This document shows, one piece after another, positions 53,567 through 56,974 of a DNA stretch of 64,000 nt. The position numbers were made by a program, and so were the translations under genes. Source of the DNA: Desulfitibacter sp. BRH_c19 (lineage in GTDB: Bacteria; Bacillota; DSM-16504; Desulfitibacterales; Desulfitibacteraceae); assembly GCA_001515945.1 (NCBI GenBank), contig LOER01000033.1, positions 62,001-126,000 of the forward strand, read 5' to 3'. Numbering within the stretch: the first letter of the stretch is position 1; every line of letters starts with the position of its first letter. The notes beneath the pieces are model-generated. The model did no database searches, was not told where the DNA came from, and was given only the letters and a program-made list of their open reading frames with translations.

Positions 53567-54301
53567 TTAGATAACAGAATCATCATCTTCTGTCTCTTGA
53601 ATATATTCGGGATCATCCTCCTGCAAATCAACATATAGGTTACCATCTGTTGATAAGGTAGCCAAGAAAACATCTCTTATGTTCTTAATGCTTTTTGCTG
53701 AAAGCTCATTATACAACCATTCATGTGTAAGGCTATTTTGTTTCAAGTTCTGTTCTACTATACTACCATCTCTAATGATTTCAGAGGATACACCTTTATA
53801 GTTGGTGCTAATGTTTAAATCCTTTGGTGTAGCTGCCAAGTACTGACTTTTCTTCAGAACACTTAGCTGTCCATGGGGTTCTAAAATAGCAAACTCAACT
53901 TCACTTAAATCAAATACTCCCTTTTCCCGAAGTTGCATCATCAGGTCATCCTGATTATAACGTATTTTACTCATATTTTTCTCATATATCTTGCCATTTT
54001 GCACCATGACAAGGGGTTCACCTTCTATTAGTTTTCTAGCTGGTATACTTTTCAAGGATAAGTAACCTAAAGCTACCACAAACAAAGTTAGTACTATTGG
54101 ACTGATGAGGACATAATAGCCCTCTACCTCCATAGTTACGTAAGCACCACCTATTGTGCCAATTATAATACCTGTAACAAAATCAAAGAATGTCATTTGA
54201 GATAGCAGTTTTTTACCAATTAAACGAGTTAATGTAACTAATAGGATAAAAACTATTACAGAATGATGGATTGCCTGATAAATCTCTGTAAAATCAACCA
54301 A
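53567..54301 (-). CDS. DUF421 (YetF-like) membrane protein
   Basis: Membrane protein of 244 residues: three helices at the N-terminus (about 10-85, TRLIGKKLLSQMTFFDFVTGIIIGTIGG), then a cytoplasmic DUF421 domain (RKLIEGEPLVMVQNGKIYEKNMSKIR, DLMMQLREKGVFDLSEVEFAILEPHGQLSV). The family is common in Bacillus-type spore formers; its function is not settled. GGAGGTGA favours the TTG at 54301 over the GTG at 54325. The C-terminus is acidic (EDDPEYIQETEDDDSVI). Confidence 0.85.
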   Translation of the reverse strand: MVDFTEIYQAIHHSVIVFILLVTLTRLIGKKLLSQMTFFDFVTGIIIGTIGGAYVTMEVEGYYVLISPIVLTLFVVALGYLSLKSIPARKLIEGEPLVMVQNGKIYEKNMSKIRYNQDDLMMQLREKGVFDLSEVEFAILEPHGQLSVLKKSQYLAATPKDLNISTNYKGVSSEIIRDGSIVEQNLKQNSLTHEWLYNELSAKSIKNIRDVFLATLSTDGNLYVDLQEDDPEYIQETEDDDSVI

Positions 54302-54387
54302 AGGGTCACCTCCACTAGGCTTCACCTTGTCATATTGTACAAGTAGACCTTAAGTAAAGATTTCCCTTATATTCTTGTTTTATCCCC

Positions 54388-56407: not shown

Positions 56408-56453
56408 TCTAAAAAACACTAAGCAGGCAAATTATACTGCCTGCTTAGTGTTT
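56408..56453 (-). terminator. Terminator after the TOBE/UGA gene
   Basis: AAACACTAAGCAGGCA (56414-56429) pairs perfectly with TGCCTGCTTAGTGTTT (56438-56453), running into six T on the minus strand. A strong, intact terminator 23 bp past the TAA argues that the gene is still expressed. Confidence 0.92.
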
Positions 56454-56475: not shown

Positions 56476-56697
56476 TTAGTGTTTTACCATAACTACATTA
56501 ATTGCCTCTACTAGGGCATCAATAGTATCTCCCTGCTTAAAGTTTGCTTCTTCTAAACTGTCTCTCGTCATCACGGACGTGAGTCGTGGCCTATCAGGGC
56601 CTCAACCACCCAGTCACATGGTAACTTGGGCCATTAATTCATCTTGCTTTATGCTTTCTACCTCACCATGCAAAGAATTTTTCACACCAGGCTTCAT
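56476..56697 (-). CDS. TOBE/Mop-domain (molbindin-like) gene with two in-frame UGA codons, candidate selenoprotein
   Basis: An intact 73-codon frame interrupted only by two TGA codons: 28 (56614-56616) and 32 (56602-56604). The translation begins MKPGVKNSLHGEVESIKQDE, then LMAQVTM-U-LGG-U-GPDRPRLTSV, then MTRDSLEEANFKQGDTIDAL and VEAINVVMVKH. This is the single-domain Mop/TOBE fold that binds molybdate or tungstate, compared by eye with clostridial MopI. Relative to MopI there is a short insertion after the Gly-Gly turn, exactly between and after the UGA codons. GGAGGTGA stands 5 bases before the ATG and a strong terminator follows. SECIS-like hairpins follow the UGAs. A young pseudogene is the alternative. 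Confidence 0.7.
56566..56609 (-). promoter_or_regulatory. SECIS-like hairpins downstream of the UGA codons
   Basis: In the message, hairpin A pairs GUGG-UUG-A-GGCC with GGCC-A-CGA-C-UCAC (11 pairs, one mismatch, one bulged C, loop CUGAUA), starting 5 bases after the first UGA. Hairpin B pairs CG-A-C-UCAC with GUGA-U-G-A-CG (bulged U, loop GUCC), its loop 23 bases after the second UGA. Bacterial SECIS elements commonly have the loop 16-37 bases behind UGA with a G early in the loop; B fits best. A and B overlap and would be alternatives. Judged by eye only. Confidence 0.45.
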
Positions 56698-56818
56698 CAA
56701 AATCACCTCCTATTTCTTCCTATTATTCGATATTAGTTACAATTTATTCAATTTACTTATTATTGGATAGCTTTCTAGAAAAACTGGAAAACTACCCGTA
56801 ATAAGGAGGTGATACTTG

Positions 56819-56974
56819 ATGCCTGATGATATCAACTGTCAAATAGAGGAATGTATATATAACGATCAAGTAGGTGGATGTAAAGCTCCAAACATTGAAG
56901 TCCGTTCAAGTCTACAAAGTAGAGTATGTGAAGAGTCAGACAACACGTGCTGCCAATCTTTTCAACCAAGATAA
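56819..56974 (+). CDS. DUF1540 small cysteine-rich protein
   Basis: A 51-residue protein with seven-Cys DUF1540 layout: INCQIEECIYNDQVGGCKAPNIEV, then CEESDNTCCQSF. The spacing C-x4-C-x8-C-x-A-x2-I is typical of this family of small, perhaps metal-binding proteins in spore-forming Firmicutes. AAGGAGGTGA stands before the ATG and a terminator follows the stop directly. It is divergent from the TOBE/UGA gene (121 bp). Function unknown. Confidence 0.85.
   Translation: MPDDINCQIEECIYNDQVGGCKAPNIEVRSSLQSRVCEESDNTCCQSFQPR

Follow-up and report, generated by a model that had tools for sequence, protein, structure and literature searches.

The selenomolbindin locus

The window, i.e. the whole stretch of 64,000 nucleotides that was analysed, carries on its minus strand a short gene for which we use the working name selenomolbindin (Table 1). 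Its frame runs from an ATG at 56697 to a TAA at 56476 and comprises 74 codons for a product of 73 amino acids, the only stops inside it being TGA at codons 28 and 32. The original prediction had given coordinates and codons correctly and had named no strand. It had also described the ribosome binding site and the terminator as intact, the sequence past the UGAs as Mop-like and a short insertion relative to MopI as lying exactly at the UGAs, all of which agrees with our analysis. The read-through product (MKPGVKNSLHGEVESIKQDELMAQVTMULGGUGPDRPRLTSVMTRDSLEEANFKQGDTIDALVEAINVVMVKH) scores 26.0 bits with Pfam TOBE, above the cut-off of 22.3, and 36.1 bits with the Mop model TIGR00638, below the cut-off of 55; relative L037 reaches 55.5 bits with the latter model. 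Compared with ordinary Mop proteins, the insertion of the window protein indeed sits at the UGAs.

Table 1. Features of the selenomolbindin locus, in window coordinates
Feature	Position	Strand	Evidence or remark
Selenomolbindin gene (working name)	56476..56697	(-)	Translation, Pfam TOBE and TIGR00638, AlphaFold2 (AF2)/Foldseek, 46 UGA relatives
UGA codon 28 (putative Sec)	56614..56616	(-)	UGA in 22/22 window-type relatives; Arg (CGA) in the otherwise similar L084
UGA codon 32 (putative Sec)	56602..56604	(-)	Kept in 22/22 window-type relatives, in L084 and in the U32-only L034, L035 and L038
Ribosome binding site AGGAGGT	56705..56711	(-)	Sequence; just 5' of the selenomolbindin ATG
Strong intrinsic terminator (AAACACTAAGCAGGCA ... 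TGCCTGCTTAGTGTTTTTT)	about 56411..56453	(-)	Sequence
Hairpin 1, GGCC-CUGAUA-GGCC, directly after UGA32	56588..56601	(-)	Possible spacer, or SECIS of UGA28
SECIS-like hairpin CUC-A-CGUC-CGUGAU-GACG-A-GAG	56562..56583	(-)	Loop 26 nt after UGA32; core conservation, lower-stem pairing

A small Cys-rich DUF1540 protein adjoins the gene (window 56819-56974, plus strand), and a similar small Cys-rich protein adjoins relative L144. Moreover, a DUF421 (YetF-like) membrane protein is encoded near the gene in three genomes (window 53567-54325, minus strand; L012, 5385-6071; L155, 3798-4517), in two of which it is followed by DUF4363.

Distribution, layouts and phylogeny

A first scan of a species collection yielded 15 loci, and both UGAs were kept in all of them; the carriers were Candidatus Formimonas warabiya, Pelotomaculum, Sporotomaculum syntrophicum, Desulfoscipio, Desulfotomaculaceae and other Clostridia. 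The wider search of 399 Bacillota genomes and three classes resulted in 46 UGA-containing sequences, among them a few near-duplicates or fragments, as well as 22 sense members of the subfamily. A close homologue was sought in the same-order relatives G001-G003 and not found there. The carriers include isolates and single-contig genomes (G018, G114, G263, G307). Hence, the UGAs are not an assembly artefact, and the recurrence of both UGAs together with the hairpin in independent genomes lies far beyond chance.

The sequences differ in the layout of the UGAs. Type A has U28 and U32 with the insertion and comprises 22 sequences including the window, to which L084 can be added as a type A sequence with Arg at position 28. 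Type B has U32 without U28 (L034, L035 and L038). Type C, with U14 and U28, lacks the insertion and is represented by 18 sequences; L116 is a partial sequence of this type. The 22 sense sequences, which have no UGA, form type D. A tree calculated with the Sec positions masked unites the UGA members in a single clade (support 0.73) adjacent to type D (0.85); the group of type A and L084 has a support of 0.94. Judging from the equal distance to the hairpin, U28 of type C may be the counterpart of U32 in types A and B.

The sense sister clade (type D, e.g. L044, L046 and L049) resembles the window protein in the TSVMT and KAINVV signature at 48-57% identity, and its selenium-gene neighbours are similar to those of the UGA members. 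Unlike them, it has neither UGA nor frozen hairpin and shows K, V, I, T or M at position 14 and Q, K or R at position 28. The original prediction had proposed to search homologues for TGA or Cys codons at codons 28 and 32. UGA proved to be conserved in relatives, but Cys was absent at the Sec positions 14, 28 and 32 among the sense relatives, which have K, V, I, T, Q or R there. Non-Cys sense codons at both positions in close relatives had been named as a finding that would refute selenocysteine. The sister clade carries such codons; nevertheless, type D does not refute the Sec claim because it lacks the UGAs as well as the frozen hairpin, and it serves instead as a natural control.

Two further sequences were observed beside these genes. 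A decayed and truncated tandem copy in G307 (L120, 5717-5832) still has both UGAs, but the SECIS hairpin is gone, and the copy is closed by a TAG. In G444, a type C gene is accompanied by the gene of a longer Mop-related protein (L119, 2694-3068), the N-terminal part of which is rich in Cys (HLYPGCRFCEVTAICRKTQDEC).

Selenocysteine machinery and coding constraint

The genome of the window (3.85 Mb in 48 contigs) possesses a tRNA-Sec with the anticodon TCA and, adjacent to it, selB and selA, which are among the genes for which the original prediction had advised to look. The same genome encodes three formate-dehydrogenase-type molybdopterin oxidoreductases with one in-frame TGA each (L169, L170 and L172; G000 contigs C4, C34 and C23), in which the TGA stands in the context HCARLUHS or HHARLUHS and is followed by hairpins with a GGUCU loop. 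From tRNA-Sec, selA, selB and these three UGA-containing genes it follows that the window's genome decodes UGA as Sec. Furthermore, selB was detected in all 38 of the UGA-gene genomes tested and in 20 of 21 sense-gene genomes; hence, the sense state is not due to loss of the machinery.

The substitutions located 3' of the hairpin amount to 529, 234 and 1394 at codon positions 1, 2 and 3 in type A and to 662, 455 and 1666 in type C. This excess at third positions indicates that the region behind the UGAs is translated and selected, in line with the predicted constraint on the frame.

The SECIS-like hairpin

In the UGA genes, the codons for TSVMT are frozen as ACG TCC GTG ATG ACG, whereas those of type D vary (ACT/ACC/ACA, TCG/TCT/TCA, GTA/GTT/GTC/GTG, ACC/ACT). 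The 14-nt core CGTCCGTGATGACG is found exactly in 42 of the 46 UGA genes compared to none of the 22 sense genes. The four exceptions are L065 and L066, where a change from C-G to U-G keeps the pairing, L068 with further changes, and one truncated extra copy. The core folds as CGUC-CGUGAU-GACG and is extended by a lower stem of three more pairs, which occur in differing combinations (CUC/GAG, GUG/CAC, AUU/AAU, GUU/AAC, GUG/CGC); two or all three of them are formed in 40 of 43 UGA genes versus 6 of 21 sense genes. In type A, the start of the loop follows U32 at a distance of 26 nt; in types B and C, it lies 23 nt behind the proximal UGA.

These features were compared with the published bSECIS model, which asks for a loop of 3-9 nt, a G in the first two loop positions, a distance of 16-37 nt and an MFE of -7.5 or lower. 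In loop and distance, all members with the exact core fit it: their loop CGUGAU offers GU and follows the proximal UGA at 23 or 26 nt. The MFE of the 28-nt element ranges from -3.7 to -10.9, so the limit is reached by many members, but not by all, and the window with -7.1 kcal/mol falls just short of it. Each UGA genome examined, that of the window included, has a single exact copy of the core, which lies at the selenomolbindin gene; hence, the hairpin is family-specific. A generic SECIS sequence used throughout the genome was considered as well and rejected, given that the core is unique per genome and the formate dehydrogenases have GGUCU-type loops. A search for a known RNA family matching the hairpin returned nothing credible in Rfam.

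The original prediction had placed hairpin loops 16 and 23 nt behind the first and the second UGA. Both can be drawn, namely hairpin 1 at 16 nt after UGA28 and an alternative fold of the main stretch, UCAC-GUCC-GUGA, at 23 nt after UGA32. The latter is less well supported than the fold with the loop at 26 nt: it gives no reason for the freezing of the 3' ACG codon, and in L034 and L037 a G-G interrupts it.

Possible decoding of the second UGA

The main hairpin of type A would decode U32 over the loop distance of 26 nt. The more distal codons lie further away, with 38 nt between U28 of type A and the main hairpin loop and 65 nt in the case of U14 of type C, and such distances make another element or a special arrangement necessary. 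For U14 of type C, there is a weak candidate hairpin that depends on the protein sequence. For U28 of type A, hairpin 1 is of interest. In relatives, both sides of its stem change (AU to GC, UA to CG), and the helix is 76% paired. Its stability exceeds that of synonymous recodings of the peptide, with a mean z of -1.7 against +0.13 in a control stretch, a z-score which must not be taken as a probability because the sequences are related.

U28 could accordingly be decoded in two ways. The main hairpin could serve it at a distance of about 24 nt once hairpin 1 has folded into a spacer; alternatively, hairpin 1 would act on it directly at 16 nt. That a single SECIS decodes both U28 and U32 of type A, instead of one SECIS per UGA, is an option to which we give somewhat less than an even chance. 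It is consistent with the same hairpin at 23 nt in the U32-only and the U14 plus U28 members, with a selection on hairpin 1 beyond what the protein demands and with an apical loop without a constant G; moreover, folding of the 14 nt of hairpin 1 would move U28 from 38 to about 24 nt. On the other hand, the hairpin 1 loop lies 16 nt behind U28 and thus within the bSECIS range, which means that hairpin 1 may itself be the SECIS of U28. The retention of hairpin 1 in L084 despite Arg at codon 28 can be held against the shared SECIS, yet taken by itself it speaks neither for a spacer nor for a U28 SECIS.

Predicted fold and oxyanion-site residues

The AF2 model of the window protein has a Mop fold with a pLDDT of 84. 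Foldseek returned MopII (1gug) as the best match with a TM of 0.71, and Tub (9beb) also tops the list. MopII of Clostridium pasteurianum and Tub (tungbindin) of Eubacterium limosum are, like the window protein, single Mop/TOBE domains of about 70 amino acids with the same predicted fold (TM 0.71 to both), and the sequence match to them has E values of 1e-11 to 1e-13. The window protein differs from MopII and Tub, for which no Sec is known, in Gly instead of Ser4, the TSVMT...KAINVV signature and the two UGA codons; the window type additionally has the insertion at the beta2-beta3 turn.

The type-1 site of Tub relies on the backbone at residues 20-22, its type-2 site on Ser4, Arg6, Ser40, Lys60 and Ala61, among which Ser4 is a side-chain ligand (PMC11980592). 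Throughout the subfamily Ser4 is replaced by Gly, while Thr44 at the Ser40 position keeps the hydroxyl and Ala61 is kept as Ala65. Arg6 is kept as R (K in the window) and Lys60 as K64 (E in the window). According to the model, strand 2 would end with U28, and U32 would fall into the loop that leads to strand 3, whereas the Tub sites use the equivalents of 4, 6, 20-22, 44 and 64-65. The predicted location of the Sec residues beside the oxyanion site could therefore not be confirmed.

The ordinary Mop proteins of many related genomes (L101, L102, L103, L105-L112) have a conserved Cys just before the equivalent of Ser41 in the motif EMCSTIT, possibly a thiol near the oxyanion site.

Gene neighbourhood

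Most selenomolbindin members stand alone and have no conserved gene neighbour, hence the function is only weakly constrained by gene context. A single conserved operon was rejected, as the neighbours are heterogeneous. Some are genes of selenium metabolism, namely YedF (L032, L041), YedE (L083, L013, L035), SelD together with a Sec-lyase-like enzyme (L041), the Se/S carrier DUF3343 (L013) and HGD-D type reductases; YedE, YedF, DUF3343 and Sec lyase have been tied to selenium metabolism by comparative work (PMC5322559). Others point to Mo/W, such as the MOT1 molybdate permease (L016, L023), molybdopterin oxidoreductases (L021, L042, L116) and a xanthine-dehydrogenase-like fragment (L093). Among the 22 sense members, YedF is a neighbour in 4, a Sec-lyase-like gene in 3 and HGD-D in 8 cases, which are raw counts. 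The HGD-D (2-hydroxyacyl-CoA dehydratase-like) reductases were found near 4 of 43 UGA members versus 8 of 22 sense members (L139, L150, L160-L165), and they may mark the pathway of the subfamily.

Interpretation and alternative explanations

By comparison, we could establish the conservation of the UGAs, the frozen hairpin, the presence of the machinery, and translation with coding constraint past the UGAs. From this comparison, we regard selenomolbindin with high confidence as a selenoprotein gene of a new Mop/TOBE family, in which UGA would be read as Sec via SelB and tRNA-Sec with the help of a SECIS hairpin that is specific to the family and lies within the TSVMT-R/N-D/E codons; we infer Sec for the UGA-encoded residues. 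The central claim of the original prediction, a TOBE/molbindin protein of an undescribed family with two selenocysteines, is supported by the conserved UGAs, the hairpin frozen only in UGA genes, the Sec machinery and the coding-type evolution downstream. Against this reading stand the missing Cys homologue, the window MFE short of the limit, the long distances of U28 (type A) and U14 (type C) from the loop, and a loop unlike those of the genome's own GGUCU formate dehydrogenases. Cys in place of Sec in homologues is usual, but not obligatory, for bacterial selenoproteins. Two stops in such a short gene, and the truncated, hairpin-less extra copy in G307, could also be expected of a decaying Mop pseudogene with two ordinary nonsense mutations. 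This explanation is hardly credible, since the same two UGAs occur in 22 window-type genes, TAA or TAG was never seen at the Sec sites among the genes collected, substitutions downstream are of the coding type, and ribosome site and terminator are intact; it was rejected on the conservation of both UGAs together with the downstream coding constraint. An improbable alternative is that the UGAs are partial stops or are read by a near-cognate tRNA, the hairpin then serving readthrough or regulation instead of being a SECIS, e.g. as a switch that responds to selenium, where the short product or the fate of the mRNA matters. The sense homologues without Cys at the sites and the loop differing from those of the formate dehydrogenases would suit it. 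It is opposed by selB in every UGA-gene genome tested, by a hairpin whose distance and loop fit the bSECIS model and which is frozen only with a UGA upstream, and by the two closely spaced UGAs, which would presumably make plain readthrough very inefficient.

Accepting Sec incorporation, the function can be addressed only tentatively. Selenomolbindin may be a cytoplasmic oxyanion-binding oligomer in the selenium and Mo/W economy of anaerobes, where Sec would permit a redox-dependent binding and release (diselenide) or a direct hold on Se, Mo or W species. Just as tentative is a role in selenium trafficking proper, i.e. binding of a selenium oxyanion or delivery of Se to SelD or selenium-dependent molybdenum hydroxylases in place of molybdate/tungstate storage. 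The UGA and sense members near YedF, YedE, SelD, Sec-lyase-like and HGD-D genes as well as the replacement of the Tub type-2 ligand Ser4 by Gly across the whole subfamily are in favour of trafficking, but other members adjoin MOT1, molybdopterin oxidoreductase and xanthine-dehydrogenase-like genes, and at the majority of loci neither kind of gene is nearby. The enzyme system dependent on selenium and molybdenum that the original prediction had put forward is a guess, and the neighbours favour selenium metabolism at least as much as Mo/W. More speculative, and in our view unlikely in its entirety, is a scheme of a selenolate-bearing protein for oxyanion storage, in which the Sec pair binds or reduces Mo, W or Se species directly and the protein couples the supply of Se with that of Mo/W, and in which one fixed SECIS would serve Sec codons that have moved, in the window type a pair of UGAs at a distance of four codons, measured off by a folded spacer.

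Novelty and significance

The majority of known selenoproteins have a thioredoxin-like fold and are oxidoreductases of the thiol type, and the 2026 inventory lists 119 prokaryotic selenoprotein families, with no TOBE/Mop family in its Table 1 (PMC13188914). The NCBIfam selenoprotein models gave no match to the UGA proteins queried, and a TOBE, Mop, molbindin or molybdate-binding selenoprotein was not found in the open-licence literature; as far as these sources reach, membership in a known selenoprotein family was rejected on these negative results together. The "metal-binding double selenoprotein" MbdU (NF045648) likewise has two Sec in a protein named metal-binding, but it is distinguished by a CU motif in the published table (PMC13188914), and its model did not match the window protein, L012, L034 or L037. 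With SECIS-directed bacterial selenoproteins such as the formate dehydrogenase alpha subunit, selenomolbindin shares the in-frame UGA, a hairpin within 16-37 nt and selA, selB and tRNA-Sec. It is unlike them in its predicted non-thioredoxin fold of the oxyanion-binding type, in two Sec with GG between them, in the lack of Cys homologues and in a Sec position that varies among members while the hairpin is fixed.

The lack of Cys homologues means that such genes would be missed by homology-based finders that rely on Sec/Cys pairs, and gene callers terminate selenomolbindin at codon 27. The family offers a natural experiment on UGA decoding, with a fixed hairpin, Sec codons at three positions, one or two of them per gene, and a sense control clade. 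Hence, the question whether one bacterial SECIS serves two UGAs becomes directly testable. If true, selenomolbindin would extend the selenoproteins for the first time to the molybdate/tungstate-binding Mop fold and would provide a new link between selenium and Mo/W biology.
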